This document shows positions 2,747-32,999 of a DNA stretch of 33,714 bases, piece by piece. The notes under the pieces are model-generated. The model saw only the letters and a list, made by a program, of their open reading frames with translations. It was not told the DNA's origin and searched no databases. The DNA is taken from IMG/VR virus record IMGVR_UViG_3300045911_000704, positions 1 to 33,714 of that record; one strand, written 5' to 3'. Made by a program: the position numbers and the translations under genes. The stretch comes from a virus. Every line of letters begins with the position of its first letter. The first letter of the stretch is position 1.

Positions 2747-4267
2747 CTACCGAGCTGATCGCAGTTCTGCGATCAACGCCGCGATCTCTTTCTGCTTTGC
2801 CTCAATGATGTCCAGCAGCTCGGCTGGCGTCCGTTTGTCTTCGTCCTCGGTGACGTGCGGGTTGACCGCCTTCAGGTCGTAGTTGCGCGCCTCGAGCTGG
2901 CTGCGAGTGACGGTCCAACTCCGCGGCGAGTCGCTCCGCTTCGGCAGCCGGGCGAAGAAGTCATCAAAGTGACTGATCGTCAGCGGCTTTTTTTTCGACG
3001 CCTTCACGTCCGAGAGGTCGTAGTACCAGATCTTCTCCGTCGGCTCTCCCTTGGTGAAAAACACGAGGTTGGTCTTGACACTGGCGCCGGCCGCCACGAA
3101 CACGCCGGCGGGCAGACTGACGATGGACCAGACATTGCAGTCGTCGAGTAGCTTCTTTTTGGTCTGGAGGAACGCCGTTTCGCTCGTCCGGAACAACACG
3201 CCCTCGTCGAGCACGATGCCGCACCGGCCTCCGGGCTTCAGGCTGTCGATGACATGCTGGAGGAACAACACCTGCGTAGCGCCGGTCTTGTACGCGAACC
3301 GCGTCTGGGCCTCCTTGCCCTCTTTCCCACCGAACGGCGGGTTGGTCAGCACGACATCGTAGAGCGGCGGCGCGTCCTGGAAGAGTCCGCCGTAGATCTC
3401 CTGCCCCGTCAGCGTATTCCCGTGCCACAAGTTCGGCCGGTCGATGCCGTGGAGCACAAGGTTGGCGAGCGCAATCGGGTAGATCAGGTTCTCTTTTTCA
3501 CGTCCGTAGAAGGTCCGCTCCCGGAGAGTCTCAAGCTGGTCGGCCGTCGCATCGCGGCCGAGATTGGCCTTCATGTACTCAAAGCTCTGCGCGAGGAACC
3601 CACCTGTGCCGCAGCCTGGGTCGTAAACCGTCTCGCCCACGCGCGGATTGACTGCTCGAACCATCGCCCGGATGACTTCGCGCGGTGTGAAGAACTGCCC
3701 GCCGTCGTTGCCCTTCTCGCCCATCTTCAAGAGGAGGCCCTCGTAGACCTGCGATAGGGTGAAAACGTGGGTCGGGTCCACCGTCTCGCTGCTGATCTCG
3801 TGAACCTTGTCCAGCACGTCGAGCAGGTTGCGTTCCGTATCGATCCGGACCCGTTCGACGCCGGACATGATCTCGCTGATGACCTTCTGTTTTATCGTGG
3901 CGCCTGGCTTATCTTTCAGGCCGCGCAAATACGGCAAGAGCTTGCCGTTAACGAACCCGAAGAACGCACCCAGCGACCCGTCCTGCAAGGCCTTCCTCTT
4001 CTTGCCATCGGGCGCTGCCCAATCCCGCCACCGGTAAGGCTTTTCAACCGATGCTCGAAATTCGGCTCCAACGGCTTCGGCTTCTTGAGCCTCCTGTTCC
4101 TCGCGCTCATCCAGGATGCGGAGGAAAAGGATCCAGGTCAGTTCCGGAACGTACTGCATCGCGCCGGCGCAGTTGGACCGCCGCATGATGTCACAGATGC
4201 TCTTAACAGCGGTGTTGACCGACTGCTGGGTCAGGAGCGCTTTGCCGTTGCCATTCTTTGCCTTCAC
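2747..4267 (-). CDS. hsdM: Type I restriction-modification DNA methyltransferase subunit M
   Basis: The 506-residue product transfers a methyl group from S-adenosylmethionine to adenine N6 within the site chosen by HsdS, and forms the M2S methylase core. The N-terminal helical domain (about 12-160) is followed by the FTP element (193-195), the AdoMet-binding motif I DPGCGTGGF (216-224) and the catalytic motif IV NPPF (309-312). Length and motif order are normal for the family. The start is GTG and overlaps the hsdS stop in the sequence GTGA, indicating translational coupling. The gene order R-S-M is less usual than M-S-R or R-M-S. All key motifs are intact, so the enzyme looks functional. Confidence 0.96.
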   Translation of the reverse strand: MKAKNGNGKALLTQQSVNTAVKSICDIMRRSNCAGAMQYVPELTWILFLRILDEREEQEAQEAEAVGAEFRASVEKPYRWRDWAAPDGKKRKALQDGSLGAFFGFVNGKLLPYLRGLKDKPGATIKQKVISEIMSGVERVRIDTERNLLDVLDKVHEISSETVDPTHVFTLSQVYEGLLLKMGEKGNDGGQFFTPREVIRAMVRAVNPRVGETVYDPGCGTGGFLAQSFEYMKANLGRDATADQLETLRERTFYGREKENLIYPIALANLVLHGIDRPNLWHGNTLTGQEIYGGLFQDAPPLYDVVLTNPPFGGKEGKEAQTRFAYKTGATQVLFLQHVIDSLKPGGRCGIVLDEGVLFRTSETAFLQTKKKLLDDCNVWSIVSLPAGVFVAAGASVKTNLVFFTKGEPTEKIWYYDLSDVKASKKKPLTISHFDDFFARLPKRSDSPRSWTVTRSQLEARNYDLKAVNPHVTEDEDKRTPAELLDIIEAKQKEIAALIAELRSAR

Positions 4268-5436
4268 GTCGATGGTTGGACCTCGTTTCCATTGCGCAGG
4301 ATCGCCGCGACGAGACTCCGAATGCCTTCCACTTGCTGTTGAAGCTTGTTGACAACTTGAGACTGTTGTTCAAACGATTTCAAAAGTGTTTCGGCGATCC
4401 GTCTTTGCTGCGCCAGAGTCGGTAACATGAGCGGGAAGGCCCCGAGCACGCGTTGGTTGATGGTAGCGATGCCAGTGGTTTGCTTTGCGTGGCGCAAAAA
4501 ATACGCCTTCCCGTAGGGTGAGCCGATCTGGAATGACGCAAAATCAGGGTCAGCAATGCTACGGTTAAGGCGGACTCGAAAGATGTGGTTCTGGTGAATG
4601 CAGCCACGCACCTGACCTCGCCAGACCGCACCGCGCCCAAGCTTGTCCCGATCACCACCCTCCGTGAGGAGGACATCACCGTCGCAAAGGGCTAGCCGTT
4701 CGTACTCGCGGTCGGACGCAGGTGTCTCCAGAATCTCAGCGGTGTCGATATAGCCATCCTTCACATTGGCCACCCGCAGGTAAGGACGCAGTGTCACGTT
4801 GTCCCCGTTTAGGTTCCGACCGAGGGTCACGCCCGCGACGATCTCTGCCACGTCGCGCAAGGGCCGGACGGGCCACTGAACACAGCTGGAAGGCTCAAAG
4901 AATGAGCGCAACCAGGAGGTGGGCAGAGCCTTGGCTGCGGCGAGAGCTTCAAGGGAGGTCGATTCAGCAGATGACGCCAGCGAGAGCTTTTGCGCGACGG
5001 ATAGCTGCGTGTCCCAGTTCGGTGCTTCCACCGTTCCATTGGCCAACCGCTTAAACAGAAGGCGCTCGCGGACCGCACCTCGGGCCAGAGAACGAATCAA
5101 ATCCTCTCCGTACTTCGAGCGCAGCCAGTAGTAGAACCATCGGTGGTGCAGCACGCCGGGGCGGGTGCGGAACACCACGTAGTCCGGGCTGGTGATCCCA
5201 GGCTCATCGCCGTCGTCCACCATCGCGATCGACCCAATCATGATACGCATCGGGTTGTAGAAGATCGTTCCCGGCTCGACCAGTTTGTACCGCTCAGGGG
5301 ACTTGCCAACCGGTTCCTTGGCGAGAGCCAGGCCGGCGCGTGTGGCTCCGAGCACGCGATATTCCGACCACCTGGGCCCCACGCCGGACGAAACCTCAAC
5401 CAGGGCCTCGCTGAGCGGGATGTTACGGACACTCAT
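4264..5436 (-). CDS. hsdS: Type I restriction-modification specificity subunit S
   Basis: The 390-residue protein recognises the bipartite DNA target and holds HsdM and HsdR together. Two target-recognition halves are visible: one at about 5-130, and a second beginning at W188 (the WPVRPLRDVAEI pattern typical of the start of an S repeat) and running to about 335. Each is followed by a helical conserved region (about 140-170 and 340-385) ending in a coiled coil. The ATG start overlaps the hsdR stop (ATGA), and the stop overlaps the hsdM start. The sequence specificity cannot be read from the protein. The family is clear although S subunits diverge quickly. Confidence 0.93.
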   Translation of the reverse strand: MSVRNIPLSEALVEVSSGVGPRWSEYRVLGATRAGLALAKEPVGKSPERYKLVEPGTIFYNPMRIMIGSIAMVDDGDEPGITSPDYVVFRTRPGVLHHRWFYYWLRSKYGEDLIRSLARGAVRERLLFKRLANGTVEAPNWDTQLSVAQKLSLASSAESTSLEALAAAKALPTSWLRSFFEPSSCVQWPVRPLRDVAEIVAGVTLGRNLNGDNVTLRPYLRVANVKDGYIDTAEILETPASDREYERLALCDGDVLLTEGGDRDKLGRGAVWRGQVRGCIHQNHIFRVRLNRSIADPDFASFQIGSPYGKAYFLRHAKQTTGIATINQRVLGAFPLMLPTLAQQRRIAETLLKSFEQQSQVVNKLQQQVEGIRSLVAAILRNGNEVQPST

Positions 5437-7808
5437 GCCGAGAACATCCTCCTCTTGGTTTCAGCGAGCACTTGGGCAGGTATGCCAGCGAGTTTGAGAG
5501 CGGCAAGGCCACCCGCTCCGCGCATCTCCGGGGTAGCGAAGATCTGCGGGTTCTCCAGGCCGTCCGTGCCTGCTTTGGCGAACTGGCTGGCCAGGGCGCG
5601 CACGGCGTCCGCAGCCTGCGGCGGCATCGCGCTGAGCCACGGGGCGTGTTTATAGCCAAACGCCGCCGCCCGCTCTGCCCGTGTCCGCGGCTGCATTCCG
5701 TAACCGAGTTCGGCCAGCACGTCGTACAAATCGAAATCCTGCATCTCCTCGAGGTCTCGCACAAGCAGAACGGACCGGCCGGCATCGGGCAATTGGCCGA
5801 TCAACGTGCGCCTCTCCTGTGGCGCGACCCACTTCGCGCGGAAGTCGTCGAGAGTCGGCGCTTCCTCAACCAGTTTCGCGGCGAGCCGTTCCTTGTATTC
5901 TTCCACCGTCACGGGCGTGGCCTTCCCATCCACCGAGGTCAGGATCAGTTTGCCGGCGTCGGTCACGATCACATCGAAGCCCTGGACCATGATCGACGGC
6001 TCGGGTGGGGGCGGCGGTGGCGGCTCTGGTCCTTCACCCGGTTCCTTTGGCTTTCGAGGGGGTGTGATCTTCGTGATGAAACTCTGCCCGAACAGCCGAG
6101 TTGCGTCCGTATAGTCGTACACGCGGAACATGAGTTTGCCGGTTGCCGGGTCGAGCCGGGTGCCGCGGCCTACCATCTGGTAGAACGCGATCGGAGAGCG
6201 GACGTACTTGAAGAAAACGATGTTCCGGACTCGGGGCACATCGACGCCTGTGGTGAGAAGATCGACCGTGGTTGCGATGAAAAAGGATCGCGAGGCGCCT
6301 TTGAGGTCTGCCAGGTACTGAGCCCCGCCGACGCTGGCCGTGCACTTGAATGCGTAGGGCTCCAACCGCTGTTTGCCATTCGAGGCGCACCACTGCGCGT
6401 ACAAGTTGTTCATGGCGATCGCCACGTCGTCTGCGTGCCGGTCGCGCACGCAGAAGATGATCGTTTTCTGCTCCGGGCCGCCCGTCTCCAGCAGATACCG
6501 GAACAGGTCCTCGCACATCGCGAGCACCCGATCCGGGAGCAAGAGCCTGTCCTCAAATTCCGTCTTTTCGTAGAGGTCCTGGAGTTGTTCGCGAGTGACG
6601 GGTTGGCCGGTATTCGCGTCCACCGGGCCACGGGCGAGAATGTCGTCGATCGTGATGCCCGTGTCGTCGAGGTTGACGCGGCCTTTCTGGATTTCACAGG
6701 CCGCCAGGTATCCGTCCTCGATGCCCTGAGCCATGTCGTATTCGTAGACAGGTTCGCCAAAATGCCGGATGTTGTCGGCGCTGATGGCGAGGTCGATGGC
6801 CGCCGCCGGACTCTCCTCCGGGATCTCCAGTTCACGCGGCGTAGCCGTGAGGCCAATTTGAACTGCGTCCGGGTTTCTGGTCAAGATCTGCGACCATTTG
6901 CCCCACGCGCTCCTGTGGCATTCATCAATGACGATGTGACTGAAGTAGTTGGGCGGGTAGAAGGTTGTCAAGAAGGTCGCCGTACCGTCCTCGTTCGAGA
7001 CGTCGAGAGTCTGGTAGGTCGCCACATGGATGCGGGCATTGCGGGCGTTGTTCGTGCCGTCCTGCCGCCGGTACACTTCTGCGGCGTCGGAGCCGAAGAC
7101 ATTCTGCAGGGCGCCCAAGCCCTGCGCCCGCAGTTCGTCGCGGTCGCAGACAAACAGTGCTCGCTTCAACTGGCCGGCATCCGCGATCTTCTTCAGGAGG
7201 TTCACAGCGATGAACGTCTTGCCAGCGCCGGTTGCCAAGGCGAGCAAGGCACGCTTCTCGCCGCGGGCGAGTTTCTCCAGCGCCGCACGAATAGCGGCGT
7301 CCTGGTAGTAGCGTCGGGTTGCCTCACCGCCCATGTACCGGACCAAGAGCGGCTTTGCGCCTTCCGATGCCAGGCTGAACTGCATTGCCTGTTCGTAGCG
7401 GCAGCGCAGTTCGTCAGGCGTGGGAAGTTGACTCAGCGGACGGGGTGCGCTTGTAAGTCCGGTGAAGCGGTCGTACTCGACGAACAGGCGCCCGTTGGTG
7501 GCGATGACGAACGGGACGTTGAGGCGCTTGCAGGCGGCATAGAGTTTGCCTTGCTCCAATCCGTGCGTTGGCGGGAGATGCTCGGCCTTCGCCTCCAACA
7601 CCGCGACAGCGACCAGTTGCGTGTCGATGTTGATCTTCACACGAAGGGTGTAATCGGTCCGGCCCTTGCCACGCCGGCGTGGTTTTCCGTCGATGATCTC
7701 GATGGTGCCGGCGGTCTCTTCGCGGCGGATATGCTCTTCCGTCCACCCGCGCTGGTGTAGTGCGGGGTCGATCAGTTTGGCCCGAGTATCTGCTTCGCTC
7801 AGTGGCAC
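5433..7808 (-). CDS. hsdR: Type I restriction endonuclease subunit R (nuclease plus DEAD helicase)
   Basis: The 791-residue translocase-nuclease cleaves unmethylated DNA after ATP-driven translocation by the R2M2S complex. The N-terminal HsdR_N nuclease carries a PD-(D/E)xK arrangement with D52 and E72-x-K74. The superfamily 2 helicase core shows Walker A ATGAGKT (192-198), the DECH box (295-298), TAT (321-323) and motif VI QMVGRGTR (544-551). A proline-rich linker near 590-605 precedes the C-terminal M/S-binding domain. It is shorter than the EcoR124I-type subunit (about 1040 residues) but within range for EcoEI/type IC-like proteins. The GTG start at 7808 lies 78 bases downstream of the preceding gene. 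All catalytic motifs are present. Confidence 0.96.
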   Translation of the reverse strand: MPLSEADTRAKLIDPALHQRGWTEEHIRREETAGTIEIIDGKPRRRGKGRTDYTLRVKINIDTQLVAVAVLEAKAEHLPPTHGLEQGKLYAACKRLNVPFVIATNGRLFVEYDRFTGLTSAPRPLSQLPTPDELRCRYEQAMQFSLASEGAKPLLVRYMGGEATRRYYQDAAIRAALEKLARGEKRALLALATGAGKTFIAVNLLKKIADAGQLKRALFVCDRDELRAQGLGALQNVFGSDAAEVYRRQDGTNNARNARIHVATYQTLDVSNEDGTATFLTTFYPPNYFSHIVIDECHRSAWGKWSQILTRNPDAVQIGLTATPRELEIPEESPAAAIDLAISADNIRHFGEPVYEYDMAQGIEDGYLAACEIQKGRVNLDDTGITIDDILARGPVDANTGQPVTREQLQDLYEKTEFEDRLLLPDRVLAMCEDLFRYLLETGGPEQKTIIFCVRDRHADDVAIAMNNLYAQWCASNGKQRLEPYAFKCTASVGGAQYLADLKGASRSFFIATTVDLLTTGVDVPRVRNIVFFKYVRSPIAFYQMVGRGTRLDPATGKLMFRVYDYTDATRLFGQSFITKITPPRKPKEPGEGPEPPPPPPPEPSIMVQGFDVIVTDAGKLILTSVDGKATPVTVEEYKERLAAKLVEEAPTLDDFRAKWVAPQERRTLIGQLPDAGRSVLLVRDLEEMQDFDLYDVLAELGYGMQPRTRAERAAAFGYKHAPWLSAMPPQAADAVRALASQFAKAGTDGLENPQIFATPEMRGAGGLAALKLAGIPAQVLAETKRRMFSA

Positions 7809-7886: not shown

Positions 7887-8696
7887 TCAGCCGAAGTCCA
7901 GCAACCCCTGGCGCTGTCTGGGCGGGTAGAAGACGCCGATGACGACCCAGGAGTTGTAAGGGAACGTCGTTCCCATGAACAGCAGGGGATCGCGGTCCTT
8001 GGAGAACATCCAGTGCAGGTACTTCTCCTTCACGCTCTGCGCGGCAAGTTGTTCGCTGGCCTTCCGGCCGCGCTCTTTCAGGTAGAGGACGCCGAGTTCC
8101 CAATCCTCAATCATGGCGCGATGAGGGTTGTCGCTGTCTTCGCAGCGGAAGACATAGCTGAACTTGAAGGGAATCTTCGCCAGGTCCTTTGGGGCATCGC
8201 CGAAGAGCGTGAGCTGATTGAAAAGTGCTTGCCACTCGGGCTTCCATTCCGGATCGGCTGGCTCAATCTCCAGGTCGAGCATTTCCGCGGGCCGGACGAT
8301 GCCGATTGAAATCCGCTCTGAGTCGTACAGCGCCTTCCATTGGTTGACCGTTCGGACCGGCATTTTTTCGATGATGTCCCGGCGCTCGCGCCAACCATTG
8401 TCGGTCGAAAGTGGCGGCCCAAGAATGCGGATGGAGTCCAGGTCGGGCCGGCGGCTCTCGGACCGATTGTCGTTCCCGGCGCCGCGATTGGCGAGGCCCA
8501 CGTTGATCCACTGATACTTGTGGAACTGCTGATTCTGACTGCGGTAGCGGTAGTCTACCGGGTAGAGGCGGACCCACTTATGGTTGCGCGTGATCCCAGC
8601 GGTGCACACCAACTCCTGATACCCGCGGGAGGGATGCGGGTAGGTCATGACGGTGATCAGGACGTCAGTGGGCTGGTACTGGGTGGGCTTTGTCAC
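7887..8696 (-). CDS. Uncharacterised protein paired with DUF488 protein
   Basis: I do not recognise this 269-residue family by name. The N-terminus (TDVLITVMTYPHPS) leads into a conserved-looking segment about cell- or nucleic-acid-independent features: GITRNHKWVRLYPVDYR and a WINV strand, which suggests a small beta-barrel fold. The C-terminal half is aromatic- and charge-rich (FKFSYVFRCEDSD, KEKYLHWMFSKDRDP). No membrane segment or signal peptide is seen. The GTG start at 8696 has a GGAG Shine-Dalgarno 8 bases upstream; an alternative ATG is at 8648. It overlaps the DUF488 gene by 32 bases, so the two are almost certainly co-translated and probably act together. A 78-base gap separates it from hsdR. 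Its function is unknown; defence is suggested only by context. Confidence 0.85.
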   Translation of the reverse strand: MTKPTQYQPTDVLITVMTYPHPSRGYQELVCTAGITRNHKWVRLYPVDYRYRSQNQQFHKYQWINVGLANRGAGNDNRSESRRPDLDSIRILGPPLSTDNGWRERRDIIEKMPVRTVNQWKALYDSERISIGIVRPAEMLDLEIEPADPEWKPEWQALFNQLTLFGDAPKDLAKIPFKFSYVFRCEDSDNPHRAMIEDWELGVLYLKERGRKASEQLAAQSVKEKYLHWMFSKDRDPLLFMGTTFPYNSWVVIGVFYPPRQRQGLLDFG

Positions 8697-9558
8697 TGTT
8701 CAGCTCCACGACAGGCAGGTTGGTCAATGCGGCGATGTGCTCGGCGAGCCGGGTGCGATGACAGCAGGCGGGGTCGGCCTCCATGCACATCAAGGCGCTC
8801 GGCTTCGATTTCACAAAAGCGACGGCTTGCGCCACAGCGGTTTGCTTGCTCTTGCCGAGTTCGGACGCGTACCAGTCGAACAACCTGGCGTAGGACTTCG
8901 GTTCGCTGAGGTTCTGCCTACGATCGGAGGGTACGCCCAAATCTGGAATGTGGATGTACTCGATCCCGAGGTCGGCCGAGACGCGGTCGAGGGTACTCTT
9001 GTGAAAACCGTAGCGGCGCGCAACCGGGTTGCATCGCACGTCGATCAGCCGCGCGATGCCGGCGCGCAGCAAGCGATCCATCAAGCCGTCGACCATCAGG
9101 CCCTCGTAGCCGACCTTGTACACGGCGATCGGCGCCTTGGGCAGTTTCACGGCTCGCTTGCTGAGGTCCTGGCTGTTCGCTGTGTACCAGGGATAGCGGC
9201 GGTAGACGTCCGCGACCAGGTCGCCCACCGGCATGCGGGCGTACTTGTCGAGGATGCGCTCGATTTCGGCGGCGAACCCGAACGCGAGATCGCGGGGCTG
9301 CTCTTTTCGAAAGCCGAGCAACCGAACGCCAGTGTTAGTAGTCTCGATCCAGCCCTCCTCCGCAAGCTGCGCCAGGTCGTAGTAAAGCGTGAAAGAGTAC
9401 GGTCCGAACTTGTACGGCACGAACTCGTAGACCGCACTTCGGGGCGGATCTTCGGCTTCCTGGCTCAACAGGAAAGCAAGTTTGACGAGATGGAGCTTTG
9501 AAGCACTGCCATTGAGGCGGCCAAGGATCCTGACGATCGTGCTCTGTCGGGCGGTCAT
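8665..9558 (-). CDS. DUF488 domain protein with Panacea-like N-terminal domain
   Basis: The 297-residue protein appears to be a two-domain fusion. Residues 5-75 (KLHLVKLAFLLSQ, then an FVPYKFGPYS segment and an EEGWI strand) resemble the Panacea/SocA-like (DUF4065) winged-helix fold found in toxin-neutralising proteins. Residues about 145-285 form a DUF488 domain with the IDVR motif (172-175), NP (177-178), and the late cysteine motif C258-x6-CCHR (265-268). The DUF488 function is not established. A GTG at 9639 would add 27 residues, but a TATAAT sits at 9625-9630 on the same strand, so a transcript from it would begin after that GTG. I therefore prefer ATG 9558. It heads the minus-strand operon and overlaps its partner by 32 bases. 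Confidence 0.85.
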   Translation of the reverse strand: MTARQSTIVRILGRLNGSASKLHLVKLAFLLSQEAEDPPRSAVYEFVPYKFGPYSFTLYYDLAQLAEEGWIETTNTGVRLLGFRKEQPRDLAFGFAAEIERILDKYARMPVGDLVADVYRRYPWYTANSQDLSKRAVKLPKAPIAVYKVGYEGLMVDGLMDRLLRAGIARLIDVRCNPVARRYGFHKSTLDRVSADLGIEYIHIPDLGVPSDRRQNLSEPKSYARLFDWYASELGKSKQTAVAQAVAFVKSKPSALMCMEADPACCHRTRLAEHIAALTNLPVVELNSDKAHPVPAH

Positions 9559-9600
9559 GCCGGGGCCCTGTTGTGACGCCGATGAGCGCACGTACTCCCG

Positions 9601-9635
9601 ATAGTCAACGTGTCGAGCGCCATGATTATAGTCAA
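9601..9635 (-). promoter_or_regulatory. Probable promoter of the DUF488-hsd operon
   Basis: A perfect TATAAT lies on the minus strand at 9625-9630, about 65 bases upstream of ATG 9558, but no good -35 is found at normal spacing. The octamer TTGACTAT occurs twice in the same orientation (9602-9609 region and 9628-9635), 27 bases apart, one copy running into the -10 element. The repeat could be a binding site for a regulator. Confidence 0.45.
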
Positions 9636-9706
9636 GCACATCAACGACTTCCGGACAAGGGCGTTTCAGACAAAATCGCGCAAGAATGTTTTGGCGCGGC
9701 AGGGGC

Positions 9707-17074: not shown

Positions 17075-19642
17075 ATGGAGGTCGGCGAACTGGCCATCCG
17101 GCAATTTATCGAGCGGGTTCACGGCCCCGAGCCACAAGGGTGGCTCGTGGTGTGGACCCGCCAGGACAAGGCATCGAGGGCGTTTCGTCTCGCGCAAGAG
17201 GGCGCCCTCGATGCCGCAGTCGCCTATTGCGCGGATCGTGCCTCGCGGCAGGACGTCTACGCCGCCGTCGGATTGCAGCGGGAGGCGCCGGAACATGGCA
17301 GCCGCGGCAAGGAAGCTGGTGTCGTGTCGGTACCCGGCGTGTGGGCCGACATCGACATCGGCGGCGCGGCGCACAAGGCGAAGGAGCTTCCCGGCAGCGA
17401 GGAAGAAGCGCTGTCTCTGGTAGATGCCGTCGGACTCCCGCCGTCGGTCATCGTGCGCAGCGGCTTCGGGCTCCAAGTGTACTGGCTCTTCCGGGAGCCG
17501 TTCGTCATCGAGACGGAGGCCGAACGGCGAGAACTGAAATCACTCTCGCGGCGTTTCCAGCAGATGCTTCGCTTGCAGGCGCGTGCGCGGGGCTGGACCA
17601 TCGACCCGACCGCCGATCTCTGCCGCGTTTTGCGCGTGCCGGGAACCTTCAACCGCAAGATCCCCGGCGACGTGCGCCCGGTGACCGCCGAGTACTTCGA
17701 CCGGGCCTACTGCGTGGACGACATCGCCGAGGTCCTTTGCGGGCTCGATGATCCCGGCGAGCCCGCGCCCAGCCAGCCGCCACCGGACCTGCCGCCGGCC
17801 AAACTACCGCCCATCCTCGACGGTTGCGCCTGGATGCGCCACTGCCGGGACGACGCGGCGACGCTTCCGGAACCCGAGTGGTACCGGATGCTGACGGTCG
17901 TCGCCCGGTGCGAAGATGCCGAGCGCTGGGCGCACGAGCTGAGCCAGCCGCACCCGAAGTATTCGCGGCGCGAGACTCAGCGGAAGCTGAAGCAGGCATC
18001 CAGCGAGCAGGTGGCTCCCGTCACCTGCGCCTACGTCGAATCCGACCTCGGCGGCGCACGGTTTTGCGATGCTTGCCTGTTCCGCGGCAACGTGAACTCG
18101 CCCATCGCGATCGGACGGCTGGAGGTGGACGGCGAAGCCGGCGAGTCCGGGCCGCCCGACGATGGGGAACCAGAGGACGGAGACGAATCCGATCCGCCGC
18201 CCCCGGCGGTCACGGCCGCCGCCTCCCAGATTGAGCACTACACGGATCTCGGCAACGCCAAACGCTTCGCCGCCCGGTACCGCGACCGGCTCCTGTACTG
18301 CGAGAAGTGGACCCGCTGGTTCGATTGGGACAACATGCGCTGGCGCGACGACGAGACGCTCGAGGTCTACCGCCTGGCCGGACTACTGATCCGGAGCCTG
18401 TACCCGCTTGCCAAGCGAATCCGCGACGACGAAGAGCGGCAGGCCTTCCTGAAACACTTGGCGCGGTCCGAATCCTTCCGGGCGCAGACCGCCATGATCA
18501 ACCTTGCCAAGGCCGACCCAGCCTTCGCGGTCCGGCCCGGCGACCTGGACCGTGACCCGTGGCTGCTGACCATCGAGAACGGCACGCTCGATCTGCGCAC
18601 CGGCACGCTGCGCCCGCACGATCAGCGGGACCGCATCACCAAGCTGGCGCCGGTCCGCTTCGATCCCACGGCATCCTGCCCCAACTGGCTTGAGTTCCTG
18701 CACATGGTCATGGGCGGCAATCAGCGGCTGGTCTCGTTTCTCCAGCGCGCCTTCGGCTGCTGCCTCACGGGGATCACCTCGGACAAAGCCATGTTCATCC
18801 TCTACGGGGCGAGCGGCGACAACGGCAAGTCGACCATGGTCGACGTCATCCAACTGCTGCTCGGCGACTACGCCGTGCGCACGCCCACCGAAACCTTCCT
18901 GCGCAAAAAGGACGGAGCGATTCCGAACGATGTCGCCAAACTCAAAGGCGCCCGCTTCGTGTGGGCCTCCGAAAATGAGCGCGGCTCGCGGCTGTCGGAG
19001 TCGCTGATCAAGGAGATGACCGGGGGCGACAAGCTCTCGGCGCGATTCATGCGGGGCGAGTTCTTCGAGTTCTACCCGGAGTTCAAGCCGTGGCTGGCCA
19101 CCAATCACAAGCCGCAGGTGCGCGGCGACCGCGCGCTGTGGAACCGTCTAAAGCTGATCCCCTTCCACGTAACGATCCCCAAGGAGCGCCAGAAGCCGCG
19201 CCACGAGGTGATGGCGATGTTCCGGCGGGAGATTTCGGGGATCTTGAACTGGGCGCTGGAGGGGTGCCTCGAATGGCAGCGCAACGGCCTGGGCGTCCCG
19301 GAGGAGGTGTTGGCAGCCACGCGCGAGTACGAGGCCGAACAGGATACCTTCGCGATGTTCCTCGAAGAGAAATGCGTGCGGGCGCCCAACGCGCGCGTGC
19401 TGTCGCTGGCACTGTACCGCGAGTACAAGTCCTGGGCCGAGCAGTACGGCGAGTCGCCCGTCAGCCACAAGATGTTCGCCTCGTTCATGAGCGAACGGGG
19501 GTTCGAGAAGACCAAAACCATGAAAGGCGCGCTGTACTCCGGCGTGGGTTTGCGTACCGAGGACCACTACGACACACCGCGCAGTTCATCGCCGCCACGG
19601 CAAACTCACCTGGTCCACGAGGAAGAAGGGGAGGAAGTGTGA
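17075..19642 (+). CDS. Phage primase-helicase (D5/P4-type)
   Basis: The 855-residue two-part replication protein joins an N-terminal primase-polymerase-like region (about 1-215) to a C-terminal superfamily 3-type helicase. The N-terminal part has acidic ADIDIGG (91-97), SGFGLQVYWLF (129-139) and basic RVLRVPGTFNRK (184-195), as in RepB/prim-pol enzymes. A middle segment has C318, C331 and C334, probably metal-binding, then an acidic linker (355-375). The helicase shows Walker A GASGDNGKST (578-587), the Walker B-like strand RFVWASENE (627-635) and sensor WLATNHKP (673-680). GGGGAGGAAGC precedes the ATG. The iteron region begins at its stop codon, as expected for an initiator-linked origin. 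Confidence 0.94.
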   Translation: MEVGELAIRQFIERVHGPEPQGWLVVWTRQDKASRAFRLAQEGALDAAVAYCADRASRQDVYAAVGLQREAPEHGSRGKEAGVVSVPGVWADIDIGGAAHKAKELPGSEEEALSLVDAVGLPPSVIVRSGFGLQVYWLFREPFVIETEAERRELKSLSRRFQQMLRLQARARGWTIDPTADLCRVLRVPGTFNRKIPGDVRPVTAEYFDRAYCVDDIAEVLCGLDDPGEPAPSQPPPDLPPAKLPPILDGCAWMRHCRDDAATLPEPEWYRMLTVVARCEDAERWAHELSQPHPKYSRRETQRKLKQASSEQVAPVTCAYVESDLGGARFCDACLFRGNVNSPIAIGRLEVDGEAGESGPPDDGEPEDGDESDPPPPAVTAAASQIEHYTDLGNAKRFAARYRDRLLYCEKWTRWFDWDNMRWRDDETLEVYRLAGLLIRSLYPLAKRIRDDEERQAFLKHLARSESFRAQTAMINLAKADPAFAVRPGDLDRDPWLLTIENGTLDLRTGTLRPHDQRDRITKLAPVRFDPTASCPNWLEFLHMVMGGNQRLVSFLQRAFGCCLTGITSDKAMFILYGASGDNGKSTMVDVIQLLLGDYAVRTPTETFLRKKDGAIPNDVAKLKGARFVWASENERGSRLSESLIKEMTGGDKLSARFMRGEFFEFYPEFKPWLATNHKPQVRGDRALWNRLKLIPFHVTIPKERQKPRHEVMAMFRREISGILNWALEGCLEWQRNGLGVPEEVLAATREYEAEQDTFAMFLEEKCVRAPNARVLSLALYREYKSWAEQYGESPVSHKMFASFMSERGFEKTKTMKGALYSGVGLRTEDHYDTPRSSSPPRQTHLVHEEEGEEV

Positions 19643-19885
19643 TGACGGATCCGTCATGTCTTGACCAAGCAAGTGCTTTATTTTCAACAGACCATTTTGG
19701 ATATGACGGGTTATGACGGATAGACCCTATTATCCGCCTATACGCAAAGAAGAACCCATGCCCTTATACACGTATAGAGCTTATATAGGAAAACCCGTCA
19801 TAACCCGTCATATCTGTCATTGTTCGCCGCATCTTATTGCGAAAAAGACAGTTATGACCATGACGGATTCAGCGCAATCCGTCAT
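19642..19885. other. Putative replication origin: ATGACGG iterons
   Basis: Eight exact copies of ATGACGG (either strand) fall in 244 bases. A 16-base perfect palindrome of two copies lies at 19642-19657. Two tandem 10-base repeats (ATGACGGGTT, then a variant) lie at 19703-19722. Two tandem inverse copies AACCCGTCAT lie at 19792-19811, with a degenerate third to 19820. A perfect pair ATGACGGATT-N6-AATCCGTCAT lies at 19860-19885. Between them, 19723-19791 is AT-richer than its surroundings. No gene is convincing here. Position just after the primase-helicase fits an origin. Confidence 0.7.
19764..19772 (+). promoter_or_regulatory. Near-consensus DnaA box
   Basis: TTATACACG matches the DnaA box TTATNCACA at every position but the last. 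It lies in the AT-richer centre between the two inverted iteron clusters, and supports an origin. A single box with one mismatch could be chance. Confidence 0.45.
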
Positions 19886-19896
19886 AGGGGGCGGTC

Positions 19897-20343
19897 GTGG
19901 ACGTTGAAGCCGTTCTGGACCGCCTGATGGAGGCCGGGGTCTCGGTCTGGCTGGACGACGAGGGCAAACTGCGGATCGACAAGGGCGCGCCGGAGGAGAT
20001 CAAGCAGCTCGTGCGCGAGCACAAGCAGGAGGTGATCGACGTGCGCCGGGCGCAGGACTTCATGAACCGCGCCGGCATCCGGATCATTCGCCTGCCGCTG
20101 GGCCATCTTGCCCTGGCCTATCCGCCGCGCACCGACATGGGCGAGCTTCGATGGGCGGCGCGCATTCTTCACATGGAGTCTATGCCGCTGGTCATCAACG
20201 ACGAGGGGCTCGAGTGGATCAGCCCCGAAGAGTGGCGGCGCCGACAAGTCGCTAGGATCTGCGAAGAGTACCGGCGCGAGCGGCTGAGGAAAACGGCGAC
20301 GGATGCCGCCGAGCAGCCCATGCCTCGGAGGCGGCGGGCATGA
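19897..20343 (+). CDS. Phage protein with TubC_N-like docking domain
   Basis: The GTG start at 19897 has GGGGG just upstream. Residues about 1-50 (VEAVLDRLMEAGVSVWLDDEGKLRI, then EEIKQLVREHKQEVID) match the TubC N-terminal docking-domain pattern, a short helix-strand fold that mediates protein-protein contacts and also occurs in many phage and plasmid replication proteins. The rest is strand-rich and ends in a basic tail. Its stop overlaps the nuclease start (ATGA). It may bring the nuclease or primase to a partner; no catalytic motif is seen. Confidence 0.8.
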   Translation: MDVEAVLDRLMEAGVSVWLDDEGKLRIDKGAPEEIKQLVREHKQEVIDVRRAQDFMNRAGIRIIRLPLGHLALAYPPRTDMGELRWAARILHMESMPLVINDEGLEWISPEEWRRRQVARICEEYRRERLRKTATDAAEQPMPRRRRA

Positions 20344-20630
20344 CGACCGAACGTGCGATCGTCAAGGCGATCCTGGCCTACCTGAACGGTCTCCCTGGGT
20401 GCCTGGCGCGCAAGCGTTGGGGCCGTGGCATGGGCGTGGCGGGCGACCCTGACATCGACGCCTGCATCCGCGGCCGCAGCGTGCAACTCGAGGTGAAGCG
20501 CCCGGGCGAGAAACCGACTGCGCTGCAGGCGAAGCGGCTGGAGGAGTGGCGAAAGGCGGGCGCGCTCGCTGCCGTGGTCAGCAGCGTGGAGGAAGTGAAG
20601 TCGCTCTTGGCGGAGGTGGACCTGCGATGA
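20340..20630 (+). CDS. VRR-NUC domain nuclease
   Basis: The compact 96-residue PD-(D/E)xK nuclease has motif GDPDID (35-40), catalytic E51-x-K53 in LEVKRPG and Q63 in the following helix, the standard VRR-NUC arrangement. It is about the usual size of stand-alone phage members. Such proteins are thought to be junction-resolving or restriction-like nucleases, and some act with phage helicases. It is coupled on both sides by 4-base overlaps (ATGA). Confidence 0.92.
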   Translation: MTTERAIVKAILAYLNGLPGCLARKRWGRGMGVAGDPDIDACIRGRSVQLEVKRPGEKPTALQAKRLEEWRKAGALAAVVSSVEEVKSLLAEVDLR

Positions 20631-21736: not shown

Positions 21737-22096
21737 ATGGCTGATTCTCCGTCCCTCCAGCCGCGATCGTTTGGGAAGATCGCGGTCTCCACGCCAGGAA
21801 CACCCGTCCGGGTGACCTCCGACACCTCGATCCGGGCTCACCGGATCCGGTTCGCCGTCGCCATCGGCGAGACGGGCCGGGTGTTCCTCGGTGTGGCGGG
21901 GATGAACAAGGCGACCGGCGCCGGCGTGGTGAAAGAGTTCTGGCCCACGGGCGCGGGCGGCGGCGTGGCCGATGAGTTGGTTCTCGAATCCGCCTCGGGC
22001 GACCTGCGGCCGTCGGACTACTTCGTCGACGCCAACACAGCCGGCGAGGGGTTGATCGTCGCCTACTGGGTCTGGGTTCCGAGCTATGGCAGTTGA
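21737..22096 (+). CDS. Hypothetical phage protein (119 aa)
   Basis: A glycine- and strand-rich protein (RVTSDTSIRAHRIRFAVA, RVFLGVAGMNKATGAGVV, VADELVLESASGDLRPSDYFVD) that reads like a small beta-barrel, the type seen in phage structural accessory proteins. ATG 21737 starts it. Its last 11 bases overlap the next gene, a methyltransferase. No family is recognised. Confidence 0.65.
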   Translation: MADSPSLQPRSFGKIAVSTPGTPVRVTSDTSIRAHRIRFAVAIGETGRVFLGVAGMNKATGAGVVKEFWPTGAGGGVADELVLESASGDLRPSDYFVDANTAGEGLIVAYWVWVPSYGS

Positions 22097-23546
22097 TCGC
22101 GTGACGCCGGCGATGGCGAAGCGCATCGAGCTGTGGCGGGTGGACCGATTGGCGCCTTACCAGCGGAACCCGCGGACGCATTCCGAGGAGCAAGTGACGC
22201 AGATCGCGGCCTCGATTGCGGAGTTCGGCTTCTGCAATCCGATCTTGGTGGACTCGCGCGATGGCATCGTGGCCGGGCACGGGCGGCTGCTGGCGGCAAA
22301 GAAACTCGGGCTCGCCGAAGTGCCGGTGATCGTGCTGGATCATTTGGGCGAGACCCAACGGCGAGCCTACTTGCTGGCTGACAACCGGTTGTCGGAGCTG
22401 GCCGGCTGGGATCACGAGTTGCTGGCGCTCGAACTGAAGGAGATTGCGGACGCCGGGTTCGACCCGACGCTCGCCGGATTCGACTCGAAGGAGGTTGACG
22501 ACTTCCTGGCGTCGCTCGAACGGGACGCTGAGCTCGAAGCCGAACAGGTCGGCGACGCCATTCCGGAGTTGCCTGCGGAGGCGGTAACGACGCCTGGAGA
22601 CCTCTGGCTGATTGGTCCCCATCGCCTTATCTGCGGGGACTGCCGCGATCGCAGCGTCATCGCGCGGCTGTTTGAGGACCAGAAAGCGAACGTCGTCATT
22701 ACGTCGCCACCCTACGCCACGCAGCGGCAGTACGATCCGTCGAGCGGGTTCGCGCCGGTCGCGCCGGAGAAATACGTCGCCTGGTTCAGGGACGTGGCGG
22801 GGGCGGTCGAATCGGTGCTCGCGCCCGACGGCTCCTACTTCCTCAACATCAAGGCTCACGCCGAGGAGGGCGAACGGCACACCTACGTGATGGACCTGGT
22901 GCTTGCGCACAAGCGGCAGTGGGGCTGGCGGTTCGTCGATGAGTTCTGCTGGCGCAAGACCGACGACGGCGTTCCCGGCGGCTGGTCGAACCGCTTCAAG
23001 AACGCCTGGGAGCCGATCTACCACTTCTCACGCGAGCGCAAGATCAAGTTCCGGCCGCGCGAAGTGGGTCACTGGTCGGACGACTGTTTCGACTACTCAC
23101 CCGATAACCCGAAATCGACTTCGGGCAGCGGGCTGCTGGGCACGGGGCCGCGCGGCGCGGCGGCCGACAAGGGCAAGAACCATGCGGCCTGGCAGACGAC
23201 GCGCCGCAACGCCAACGACCTCGAAGGCCGGCATGGCGGGCTGGCGCGCCCGTCGAATGTGATCGAGGCCAAGACCGAGTCCTCGCAAGGGAACCACTCG
23301 GCGCCGTTTCCCCGCGCGATTCCGGAGTTTTTCATCAAAGCATTCTCGGACGCCGGCGACGTGATCTTCGACCCGTTCGCGGGCAGCGGCACGACGCTGG
23401 TCGCCGCCGGGCTGCTTGAACGAGCGGGCTTCGGCATCGAGATCAGCCCGGCCTACTGCGATGTGATCCTGCGCCGACTGCAGGAGACCTTGAAGCTCAC
23501 GCCCGTGCATGCGCTGACGGGCGAACCATTTCAACCCAACACGTGA
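22086..23546 (+). CDS. ParB-domain/DNA methyltransferase fusion (SPPY type)
   Basis: The 486-residue fusion has an N-terminal ParB/sulfiredoxin-fold domain (about 15-110, with NPRTHSEEQV and VAGHGRLLAAKKLG) and a DNA methyltransferase (about 170-480). The catalytic motif IV TSPPY (206-210) comes before the AdoMet motif I DPFAGSGTT (429-437), so it is a beta-class amino-methyltransferase, acting on cytosine N4 or adenine N6. Phage enzymes of this design often modify phage DNA against restriction or regulate expression. ATG 22086 overlaps the preceding gene by 11 bases; a second ATG at 22113 is possible. All core motifs are intact. Confidence 0.92.
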   Translation: MAVDRVTPAMAKRIELWRVDRLAPYQRNPRTHSEEQVTQIAASIAEFGFCNPILVDSRDGIVAGHGRLLAAKKLGLAEVPVIVLDHLGETQRRAYLLADNRLSELAGWDHELLALELKEIADAGFDPTLAGFDSKEVDDFLASLERDAELEAEQVGDAIPELPAEAVTTPGDLWLIGPHRLICGDCRDRSVIARLFEDQKANVVITSPPYATQRQYDPSSGFAPVAPEKYVAWFRDVAGAVESVLAPDGSYFLNIKAHAEEGERHTYVMDLVLAHKRQWGWRFVDEFCWRKTDDGVPGGWSNRFKNAWEPIYHFSRERKIKFRPREVGHWSDDCFDYSPDNPKSTSGSGLLGTGPRGAAADKGKNHAAWQTTRRNANDLEGRHGGLARPSNVIEAKTESSQGNHSAPFPRAIPEFFIKAFSDAGDVIFDPFAGSGTTLVAAGLLERAGFGIEISPAYCDVILRRLQETLKLTPVHALTGEPFQPNT

Positions 23547-24072: not shown

Positions 24073-24342
24073 ATGATTCGCGAACTGCGGCTGTGGTGGC
24101 GGCTGCGGCCGCTCGTCAACCGATTCCAGGAGCTCACGAAGATGAAGATCTCGTTGAACGTCGCGATTCAGATGCTGGCGCTGGCGGCGCAAGGCTTGAA
24201 CGCCTCGATCGACCTGCTGCCCGGGCGCGGCAAGTTCTGGGCCATGGTCGGGCTGTCCGCCGTGCAGGGTCTCACGGCCGTACTCGCCCACTTTGCCAAC
24301 CCTGATGGCACGCCGGCCGAGGCGCCTTACATCAAGAAGTGA
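24073..24342 (+). CDS. Small membrane-associated phage protein (89 aa)
   Basis: ATG 24073 lies 5 bases after GGGG; a GTG directly before it (24070) is a less likely start. The protein has a basic N-terminus, then MKISLNVAIQMLALAAQGLN and a hydrophobic helix (FWAMVGLSAVQGLTAVLAHF, about 57-76), consistent with one or two membrane segments. A holin-like or membrane-anchor role is possible. Its stop overlaps the next start (GTGA). Confidence 0.6.
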   Translation: MIRELRLWWRLRPLVNRFQELTKMKISLNVAIQMLALAAQGLNASIDLLPGRGKFWAMVGLSAVQGLTAVLAHFANPDGTPAEAPYIKK

Positions 24343-25598
24343 AGCCCGACCTCCAAGTCGAACGCTGGCCCCTCGAGCGGCTGATTCCCTGCGCGAGGAA
24401 TCCGCGCACGCACACCGAGGAGCAGGTGGCGCAGATCGCAGCCTCGATCGCCGAGTTCGGGTTCGTCAACCCCGTGCTGGTCGGCGCCGACGGCGTCATC
24501 ATCGCGGGCCACGCCCGTGTCATGGCCGCCCGGAAGCTCGGGATGGCCGAGGCGCCGGTGATCGTGCTGGACCACTTGAGCGAGGCGCAGCGGCGCGCGC
24601 TGGTGATTGCCGACAACAGGCTTGCCCAGAACGCGGGGTGGGATGAGGAAATGCTGCGCGTCGAGTTGGAGGCGCTTCGCGAAGACGACTTTAACCTCGA
24701 CCTGCTGGGCTTCGAGGACGCAGAGATCGAAGCGCTGCTCGCTGAGTCCCAACGCGAGTCTTCGGGACTAACGGACGAAGACGCCGTCCCGGAGGCGCAG
24801 GAAACCGCAGTCACCGTGCCGGGCGACGTGTGGGTGCTTGGCGACCATCGCTTAGTGTGCGGCGACTCGACGCAGGTGGCGACGGTCGAGAAAGTGCTGG
24901 CCGGCGGGCTGGCGGACATGACCTGGACAGACCCTCCCTATGGGGTCAACTACGGCGCGACGATGAAGGACAAGCTTCGAAAGAAGCATCGCCGGATCGC
25001 CAACGACAACCTCGGCCCCGCGTTCGAACCCTTCCTTCGCGACGCCTCCGCGAACATCCTGGCCGTCACGAAGGGGGCCGTCTACATCTGCATGTCGTCC
25101 TCCGAGCTGCACACGCTGCACAAGGCCTTCACCGCGGCGGGCGGCCACTGGTCGACGTTCCTCATCTGGGCCAAGAACACATTCACGATGGGCAGGTCCG
25201 ACTACCAGCGGCAGTACGAGCCGATTCTCTACGGCTGGAAGGAAGGAATGGATCATTACTGGTGCGGGGCCCGCGACCAGGGCGATGTCTGGTTCGTCAA
25301 GAAGCCCGTTGCGAACGACCTGCACCCGACCATGAAGCCCGTCGAGTTGGTCGAGCGGGCGATTCGCAACTCGAGCAAGAGCCGCGACACGGTACTCGAT
25401 CCGTTCGCCGGGTCGGGCTCGACGCTGATCGCTTGCGAGAAGACCCGCCGCCAGGCGCGGCTGATCGAACTGGAGCCCAGGTACTGTGATGTCATCATCC
25501 GCCGCTTTGAAGAGTTCTCCGGCAAGCGCGCCGTGCTCGAATCCGACGGACGAGGGTTCGCAGAGATCGCCCTGGAACGAGGAGCGGTGGCGGCGTGA
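24339..25598 (+). CDS. ParB-domain/DNA methyltransferase fusion (DPPY type)
   Basis: This is a 419-residue paralogue of the gene at 22086. The N-terminal ParB/sulfiredoxin-fold domain (about 8-110) is strongly similar to that of the first enzyme (NPRTHTEEQV, IIAGHARVMAARKLG, PVIVLDHL). The methyltransferase part has catalytic TDPPY (197-201) before DPFAGSGS (354-361). The different motif IV and the shorter middle part suggest a different target or base, DPPY pointing to adenine N6. The GTG start is coupled to the membrane protein gene by a GTGA overlap. The two enzymes probably arose by duplication of the ParB domain or of the whole fusion. Confidence 0.92.
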   Translation: MKPDLQVERWPLERLIPCARNPRTHTEEQVAQIAASIAEFGFVNPVLVGADGVIIAGHARVMAARKLGMAEAPVIVLDHLSEAQRRALVIADNRLAQNAGWDEEMLRVELEALREDDFNLDLLGFEDAEIEALLAESQRESSGLTDEDAVPEAQETAVTVPGDVWVLGDHRLVCGDSTQVATVEKVLAGGLADMTWTDPPYGVNYGATMKDKLRKKHRRIANDNLGPAFEPFLRDASANILAVTKGAVYICMSSSELHTLHKAFTAAGGHWSTFLIWAKNTFTMGRSDYQRQYEPILYGWKEGMDHYWCGARDQGDVWFVKKPVANDLHPTMKPVELVERAIRNSSKSRDTVLDPFAGSGSTLIACEKTRRQARLIELEPRYCDVIIRRFEEFSGKRAVLESDGRGFAEIALERGAVAA

Positions 25599-31425: not shown

Positions 31426-32621
31426 CGAACCTTTCGCATATCGCTTCGCGCGTGTTCAACACGCCGCTGATGATCGACTCGAAGAAACTGGCGGCGATCC
31501 TGTCCGTGCTGGCGCCGCGCTTGGGTCTCGAGCCTCCAGCGGTGGAGGCGGCCTTGCTCACCGAGCAACGGTCGCGGAAGCCCTATGCCGTGACGGACGC
31601 TGGCGTCGCCGTCATCGAAGTCTCGGGCAGCCTGGTCAACCGTTCGTCGGGCATGGACGCGCAATCAGGGCTCACCTCGTATGAGCAGTTGGGCAACGAG
31701 ATTCTCGACGCCGCCACGGATACGCAGGTCCGAGGGATCCTCTTACGCTTCGACAGCTATGGCGGCGAGGCCAACGGCGCCTGGGATGTGGCGAGCCTGA
31801 TCGAGGAGGCCGCACGGGTGAAGCTCGTCTGGGCAGCGGTCGATGACTGGGCCTTGAGCGCGGGGTACCTGCTGGCCTCGGCCACCAACCGCATCTGGAT
31901 CACCCGCACCGGCGGCGTCGGTTCGGTCGGCATCATCGCCATGCACCTCGATCAGAGCGGCTGGGACGCGGCGAACGGCCTCCGCTACACGACCCTCTTT
32001 GCCGGGGACCGCAAGAACGACTTCAACCCGCACGAGCCGCTTTCCGACGGCGCCCGCTCGGTGCTTGTGGCCGAGGTCGACCGGCTCTACAGCATGTTTG
32101 TCGACGCCGTGGCCCGCCGCCGCAGCCTGAGCGCCGCGGACGTGCGCGGAACCGAAGCGGGCATCCTCTACGGCGAAGACAGCGTTGCTCAGGGCTTCGC
32201 CGACCATGTCGGCACGTTCCGCGACGCCCTGGCCGCGATGACCGATTCGTTGTCAAAACCGAAGTTCACGAAAGGAGGCACTCCAGTGTCTGAAGCAACC
32301 CAGGCGGTAACGAGTCCGCCCGTCCCCGATCTTGCCGCCATTGAGGCCGCTGCCCGCGAGCAGGGCTACGCCGAGGCGGCCGAGATCGTCGTGCTGTGCT
32401 CGATCGCCGGCCGGCCCACGTTGGCCAGCGACTTCATCAGCCGCCACCTCTCGGCGCCCGAGGTCCGCAAGGAACTGCTCGCGCTGCGCGCCGAGGCCAA
32501 CCAAGAAGAGATCCGATCCCACGTTCTGCCGGAGGCGAGCACCGCAGCCAAGCAGAACCTCGAGGAAAACCCGGTCGTCAAGGCCTGCATGGCCTTGGCC
32601 AGCCCGAAAGGAGGGAAGTAG
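31422..32621 (+). CDS. S49 capsid-maturation protease with scaffold tail (lambda gpC-like)
   Basis: The 399-residue protein's N-terminal protease domain (about 55-260) belongs to the S49/SppA family: FDSYGGEANGA (110-120) and the serine motif ALSAGYLL, with S146 as probable nucleophile and a lysine near 198 as probable base. The C-terminal third (about 289-399) is helical and charged, like the lambda Nu3 scaffold that is the tail of gpC. A second start inside the gene (GTG 32286, see nested entry) supports this. The order portal-protease-decoration-capsid follows lambda. Confidence 0.93.
   Translation: MTNLSHIASRVFNTPLMIDSKKLAAILSVLAPRLGLEPPAVEAALLTEQRSRKPYAVTDAGVAVIEVSGSLVNRSSGMDAQSGLTSYEQLGNEILDAATDTQVRGILLRFDSYGGEANGAWDVASLIEEAARVKLVWAAVDDWALSAGYLLASATNRIWITRTGGVGSVGIIAMHLDQSGWDAANGLRYTTLFAGDRKNDFNPHEPLSDGARSVLVAEVDRLYSMFVDAVARRRSLSAADVRGTEAGILYGEDSVAQGFADHVGTFRDALAAMTDSLSKPKFTKGGTPVSEATQAVTSPPVPDLAAIEAAAREQGYAEAAEIVVLCSIAGRPTLASDFISRHLSAPEVRKELLALRAEANQEEIRSHVLPEASTAAKQNLEENPVVKACMALASPKGGK
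32286..32621 (+). CDS. Nested in-frame scaffold protein (Nu3-like)
   Basis: Inside the protease gene a strong Shine-Dalgarno AAAGGAGG (32271-32278) is followed by GTG 32286 in the same frame, 7 bases on. It would give a separate 111-residue protein equal to the C-terminal part of the protease protein (VSEATQAVTSPPVPDLAAIE at its start). Lambda makes its Nu3 scaffold from gene C in exactly this way. The sequence supports the start; its use is inferred. Confidence 0.65.
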   Translation: MSEATQAVTSPPVPDLAAIEAAAREQGYAEAAEIVVLCSIAGRPTLASDFISRHLSAPEVRKELLALRAEANQEEIRSHVLPEASTAAKQNLEENPVVKACMALASPKGGK

Positions 32622-32624
32622 CCC

Positions 32625-32999
32625 ATGCCCGTTCAATCGCAATCGAACTACCTCGGCGACTGGCTGAAATTCGAAGAGGACAACCTTTACAGCCGCGACG
32701 AGGTCACCGTCGCGAGCGGCCAGAACCTGGCGACCGGCACCGTAGTCGGCGTCATCACCGCCAGCGGCAAGGTGACGCAACTTGCGCCGGCCGCTTCCGA
32801 CGGCTCCGAGAACGCCGCCGGCGTGCTGCTGAACGCTGTCGACGCGAGCGCCGCCGACAAGCCCGGCGTCATCGTCGCGCGCCACGCCATCTGCTCGGAC
32901 AAAGGTCTCATCTGGCCCGGCTCGATCACCGGCCCGCAGAAGGCGGCCGCCATCAGCCAACTCAAAGCCCTGGGCATTCTCGTCCGGGAAGGAGCCTAA
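32625..32999 (+). CDS. Head decoration protein (lambda gpD family)
   Basis: The 124-residue capsid-stabilising protein follows the protease/scaffold gene by 3 bases, with GGAGGG upstream of the ATG. Features include an N-terminal arm (SQSNYLGDWLKFEEDNLYSR), a beta-rich core (VASGQNLATGTVVGVIT) and a helical C-terminal part (QKAAAISQLKALGILVREGA). It is slightly longer than lambda gpD (110). It binds the three-fold positions of the expanded head in relatives. Confidence 0.9.
   Translation: MPVQSQSNYLGDWLKFEEDNLYSRDEVTVASGQNLATGTVVGVITASGKVTQLAPAASDGSENAAGVLLNAVDASAADKPGVIVARHAICSDKGLIWPGSITGPQKAAAISQLKALGILVREGA

Follow-up and report, generated by a model that had tools for sequence, protein, structure and literature searches.

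The region at positions 19642-19885 of the stretch of DNA analysed here (an IMG/VR virus contig of 33,714 bases, hereafter the window) very probably serves a temperate acidobacterial phage as its origin of replication, and sequence comparison suggests that it would be bound and melted by the primase-helicase encoded upstream, through the winged helix of that protein. We further propose, as a generalisation with about an even chance of being correct, that phage origins of this class come in specificity types: a wing hairpin of ~16 residues and the adjoining iterons would form a hypervariable cassette that switches specificity through a partly readable code, the helicase, recognition helix and scaffold remaining fixed.

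The window encodes a serine integrase, ParB-domain proteins, an SNF2-type helicase and the primase-helicase, together with the large and small terminase subunits, a portal, a head protease and a decoration protein. This content of integrase, replication and terminase, portal and head genes identifies the window as a temperate tailed phage, and the packaging and head genes led us to reject a PICI as the mobile element. The closest relatives outside the viral collection are contigs of Bryobacteraceae and other Acidobacteriota. The window also carries, on the minus strand, a type I restriction-modification set at 2747-7808 (HsdM 2747-4267, HsdS 4264-5436, HsdR 5433-7808) and, adjoining it at 7887-9639, two genes whose products match PDC-M19B and PDC-M19A, a candidate defence pair.

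Eight exact ATGACGG cores had been predicted between 19642 and 19885, and all of them are present, four starting on the plus strand (19642, 19703, 19713 and 19860) and four on the minus strand (19651, 19795, 19805 and 19879). The layout described for them is likewise there, namely a palindrome, two tandem pairs facing each other and an inverted pair, the whole beginning at the stop codon of the primase-helicase (TGA, 19640-19642). The palindrome ATGACGGATCCGTCAT (19642-19657, no strand assigned) is perfect over 16 bases, contains two cores and overlaps this stop codon. The left tandem pair ATGACGGGTTATGACGG lies on the plus strand at 19703-19719 with a spacing of 10, and the right cluster on the minus strand at 19795-19820, with exact cores at 19795-19801 and 19805-19811 followed by a degenerate one. 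The distal inverted pair (19860-19885, no strand assigned) is itself preceded by a degenerate copy; these two degenerate iterons, CTGTCAT at 19814-19820 and ATGACCA at 19853-19859, are additions to the earlier description. The facing pairs, both with 10-base spacing, lie in 20-base arms (19700-19719 and 19795-19814) that are 100% complementary and 75 bases apart. This clustering is far beyond chance: the 244 bases of the region hold 8 copies of a single 7-mer, as against a mean of 1.96 and a maximum of 3 when the region is shuffled, and no shuffle of the whole window brought more than 2 together in a stretch of that length. The rest of the window holds six ATGACGG copies, all scattered singles, which is close to the 4.9 expected.

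Between the facing pairs lies an A+T-richer centre (19720-19794, no strand assigned), a putative unwinding element that contains CTATTATC, which is kept in most close relatives according to the alignment. The A+T-richer character claimed for it agrees with duplex stability, since the two least stable 50-mers of the whole window, starting at 19764 and 19655, both fall within the region. The DnaA box claimed in the same place is not supported: TTATACACG (19764-19772) departs from TTATNCACA at one base, and L019 is the one locus that shares the site among the relatives examined for it. A DnaA-dependent origin of the iteron plasmid kind, in which the box would be conserved, was rejected on this ground. 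GC skew, a check proposed with the original prediction, has no inflection at 19642-19885 and was uninformative.

The proposed initiator is a primase-helicase of 855 aa (17075-19642, plus strand), in which a D5_N/SF3-type helicase is followed by a C-terminal, Pox_D5-like winged helix formed by the last 100 residues. Pfam gives D5_N at residues 395-546, DUF5906 at 576-683 and, just under the cut-off, Pox_D5 at 755-818; the PHROG assignment is DNA primase, and a profile match to 7ola has an E-value of 1.2e-5. The AlphaFold2 model has a pLDDT of 89.6 and its best fold matches in the PDB (Foldseek) are ASFV PrimPol, MPXV E5 and the SaPI5 primase-helicase (7ola/7om0). Within the winged helix, the predicted recognition helix comprises residues 798-807 (HKMFASFMSE; codons 19466-19495, plus strand; helix 323-332 of the model, offset +475) and is nearly constant between iteron types in the aligned close family. 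The wing β-hairpin comprises residues 811-822 (EKTKTMKGALYS; codons 19505-19540, plus strand; strands 336-340 and 343-347 in model numbering), and the model places M816-K817 at the wing turn.

The layout recurs widely. We collected 270 loci, which reduce to 164 nonredundant primases, 163 of them with enough sequence, and counted as an iteron cluster at least 4 copies of one 7-mer within 300 nt after the primase stop. Such a cluster was found in 119 of the 163 nonredundant relatives, as against 20 of 1296 stretches taken at random from these loci; in the other 44 a cluster of at least 4 copies was absent. Named phages with the same layout are Listeria PSA, B025 and LP-030-2, Acidithiobacillus AcaML1 and Staphylococcus IME1365_01. 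Within the acidobacterial family, the layout is kept and the core is replaced wholesale, being ATGACGG, GTGACGG, GTGAAGG, GTGTAGG, ATGTAGG or GTGGAGG, and despite this change the stretch around the iterons remains recognisably alike, for instance at CTATTATC in the centre. One close relative (L006:8554-9330) has ~540 bases from the primase stop to the first counted GTGGAGG iteron, unlike the others. The idea that co-resident prophages always differ in their iterons was looked at in four genomes with two such prophages (L285/L292, L286/L293, L290/L294 and L287/L291); the iterons differ between the two in three genomes and are the same in one.

The part of the primase that changes with the iterons comprises about 16 residues of the β-hairpin of the winged helix. 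Among close pairs, defined by helicases at least 80% identical, those with different iterons never had an identical wing (0 of 214), as against 66 of the 259 pairs with the same iteron, and helicase divergence was about equal in the two groups (.054 and.060, respectively). Some pairs, such as L181/L189 and L154/L178, show 100% identity both in the aligned part of the helicase and at the 58 winged-helix residues that were compared outside the wing, yet differ at 4 to 9 of 16 wing positions and have no iteron word in common; in L181, L189 and L194, the scaffold between the changed pieces is near-identical. The origins of these five loci have near-identical flanks and interspersed scaffold with different iterons and wings, and the best-matching named phages of L154 infect Listeria. 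At the level of sequence, then, it is the primase wing, among the proteins tested, that follows the base identity of the iterons.

This bears on which protein might bind the repeats. Three candidates had been named in the original prediction: the covariation of the wing favours the primase-helicase; little speaks for the TubC_N-like protein, since the iterons persist in families without its gene; and the ParB-like proteins are encoded elsewhere, with nothing tying them to the repeats. A TubC_N, MerR or ParB-like protein as general binder was rejected, since families that retain the iterons lack these genes or have others in their place. The TubC_N-like gene (19897-20343, plus strand; Pfam TubC_N E=9.6e-5, below the cut-off) adjoins the origin and, among the loci compared, is present in the acidobacterial family only; it is followed by an endonuclease-like gene (20340-20630, plus strand; PHROG match to phrog_93), and a nuclease-like gene lies directly 3' of the origin in many distant relatives. 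That the repeats are operators, through which a phage regulator such as the MerR-like or TubC_N-like protein controls the downstream genes, would fit their position just upstream of the TubC_N-like gene, the MerR-like gene nearby and the suitability of tandem and inverted 10-base sites for cooperative regulators. We nevertheless consider it very unlikely: the covarying segment belongs to the primase and to no regulator, the downstream genes vary by family as the iterons remain at the primase stop, an extra gene separates the iterons from the TubC_N-like gene in L005, L008 and L012, and no sigma-70-like promoter or terminator was found in 19500-20000. This extra gene encodes a stand-alone homologue, 128-135 aa long, of the C-terminal winged helix of the primase (L005:3583-3969, L008:1033-1419, L012:4357-4764), with Pox_D5 above the cut-off in the two of these proteins that were scanned (L005 and L012); it is possibly a replication regulator or a competitor for the iterons. 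A centromere-like (parS) site for one of the ParB-domain proteins of the window is extremely unlikely; the phage does encode ParB-like proteins, including two methyltransferase fusions, but nothing found ties any of them to the repeats, and iteron specificity tracks the primase wing. The two fusions, ParB-domain and DNA-methyltransferase proteins at 22086-23546 and 24339-25598, are paralogous.

The primase-helicase as binder is further favoured by convergence between distant clades. KTMKG accompanies ATGACGG both in the window and in L081, which is about 40% identical; the change from MK to KH accompanies that from ATGACGG to GTGACGG twice (L010/L018 and L081/L112); and KTKT accompanies GTGGA in L006 and in Listeria PSA. 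Searching the phage collection with the L081 region, and E. coli genomes with the L112 region, gave no near matches. Between clades, the identity of the wing core was.404 when a half-site was shared and.229 otherwise (permutation p 2e-4), and that of the helices carried no signal (.325 and.336, respectively; p.71).

Three residue-to-base rules were read from these data and counted on path-disjoint pairs of the helicase tree, thus on the same data, where base 1 agreed with residue 816 in 10/10 pairs, base 4 with residue 814 in 7/7 and base 5 with residue 819 in 8/8. The rules were fixed before the test loci were fetched; the test also took in genome loci L298-L323, fetched earlier and unexamined. 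In a first small held-out round, the base 1, base 5 and base 4 rules were correct in 4/4, 7/7 and 5/6 cases, respectively. On the held-out loci, the base 1 rule (M816 for A at base 1) was correct in 22 of 23 cases and the base 5 rule (residue 819) in 21 of 22; the held-out loci are partly non-independent of each other and of the first set, and several have a common wing. The base 4 rule (R at residue 814 for T, K or H for A) agreed in 7/7 tree pairs but in only 11/24 held-out loci, because of which it was withdrawn as a general rule. Two putative contacts, M816 with base 1 and residue 819 with base 5, thus predict held-out origins. Covariation, convergence and held-out prediction together suggest that the C-terminal domain of the primase-helicase is the iteron binder.

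The same correspondence weighs against a purely structural origin, in which the 20-base inverted arms and the 75-base loop would extrude a stem-loop recognised by the primase-helicase. The perfect arms speak for this reading, as does the ~100-nt stem-loop (21-nt stem, 58-nt loop) required 3' of the primase-helicase gene of pRN1, for which such recognition has been proposed (PMC4234260). It is however very unlikely here, since the wing tracks the base identity of the cores, beyond mere pairing, and since, by eye, relatives differ in the number of iterons per side (two left and three right in L019) and in their flanks (GATT against GGTT in L007), which breaks the long pairing as the cores persist. 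All three rival readings, operator, parS and structure-only, are weaker: of the proteins tested, it is the primase wing that covaries with base identity, and the iterons stay in place as the downstream genes vary.

An iteron-type replication origin, as originally predicted, is thus the best reading of the region; it rests on homology with the annotated origin of phage A2 and with SaPI/PICI origins. For this phage we infer that the protein physically binds the iterons, that its rings are loaded and melt the duplex, and that the region is active as an origin, and we propose the following mechanism. The C-terminal winged helix of the primase-helicase would bind each 10-base iteron, its constant recognition helix reading the constant half-site (GGGTT/GGAT) and its variable wing hairpin the variable half-site (ATGAC). 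The iteron clusters, being inverted, would serve as loading sites for helicase rings at either flank of the A+T-richer centre; the loaded rings would melt it, and the primase domain would then start synthesis. A self-contained replicon, made of the primase gene and the adjoining iterons, is the best explanation of these observations.

The replicon belongs to a known kind, that of the SaPI/PICI Rep-ori and the phage A2 origin, and iteron recognition by such C-terminal domains is already published; the valuable part is the wing-iteron code, partly confirmed and partly failed. In the papers searched, a set that covered a minority of the subscription literature, we found neither a family-wide wing-iteron covariation with a predictive code nor near-identical primases differing only in wing and iterons. 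Initiator-origin pairing is usually solved replicon by replicon, and here a short hairpin and a short DNA word covary across many phages, from Acidobacteria to Firmicutes. The code makes it possible to locate origins from sequence and to guess which of them are compatible, and the natural near-isogenic pairs, which differ almost only in wing and iterons, make the recognition rules directly testable. If specificity switching is real, it could let phages, prophages and satellites that coexist replicate independently of one another, or could evade origin-directed defences.

Among known systems, Lactobacillus phage A2 has a homologous primase with an origin at its 3' end, as here: its rep_origin is annotated at 32208-32717, from the end of the primase (ORF35), with iterons downstream. 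It differs by its iteron core (ACGGGAGGAT), its wing, its Firmicute host and the fact that no TubC_N-like gene was seen; its origin was reportedly studied experimentally around 2000. The alpha protein of phage P4 is a primase-helicase with a C-terminal origin-binding domain and iterons, and two cis sites (ori and crr) are needed. The present protein shares the primase-helicase, the iterons and, as a prediction, the C-terminal origin-binding domain; as to a second cis site of the crr type with the same iterons, the 33.7-kb window, whose record may be a fragment, holds one cluster only. In the crenarchaeal plasmid pRN1, a primase-SF3 helicase-winged helix protein likewise has an essential origin just 3' of its gene, where the sequence is required, but this origin is described as a stem-loop and no iteron code has been described for it (PMC4234260). 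In SaPI Rep, as in the SCCmec helicase Cch2, it is the C-terminal domain that recognises repeats lying directly 3' of the protein's own gene, and the isolated domain of Cch2 binds short direct repeats (AAGTG) just downstream, at a putative origin; Cch2 differs in having three iterons only and a primase that is a separate protein (PMC7581432).

There is also a close likeness to the SaPI/PICI Rep-ori (SaPI5 primase-helicase, E. coli PICI pri-rep-ori), with the same D5-type primase-helicase and an origin directly 3' of its gene. In PICI origins, two sets of iterons flank an AT-rich stretch, and pri plus ori are required (PMC6092414). The window has the corresponding elements: a D5/SF3-type helicase with a predicted C-terminal DNA-binding domain (Pfam, 7ola, AlphaFold2, Foldseek), repeats that start at the stop codon of the proposed initiator gene, an arrangement kept across relatives, and facing iteron pairs around the least stable DNA. 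SaPIs and PICIs are satellites, whereas the replicon proposed here, of the same kind, sits in a full temperate phage that carries terminase, portal and protease genes of its own, and the layout is common in phages; what had been described as an origin layout peculiar to satellites of phages is thereby extended to ordinary temperate phages.
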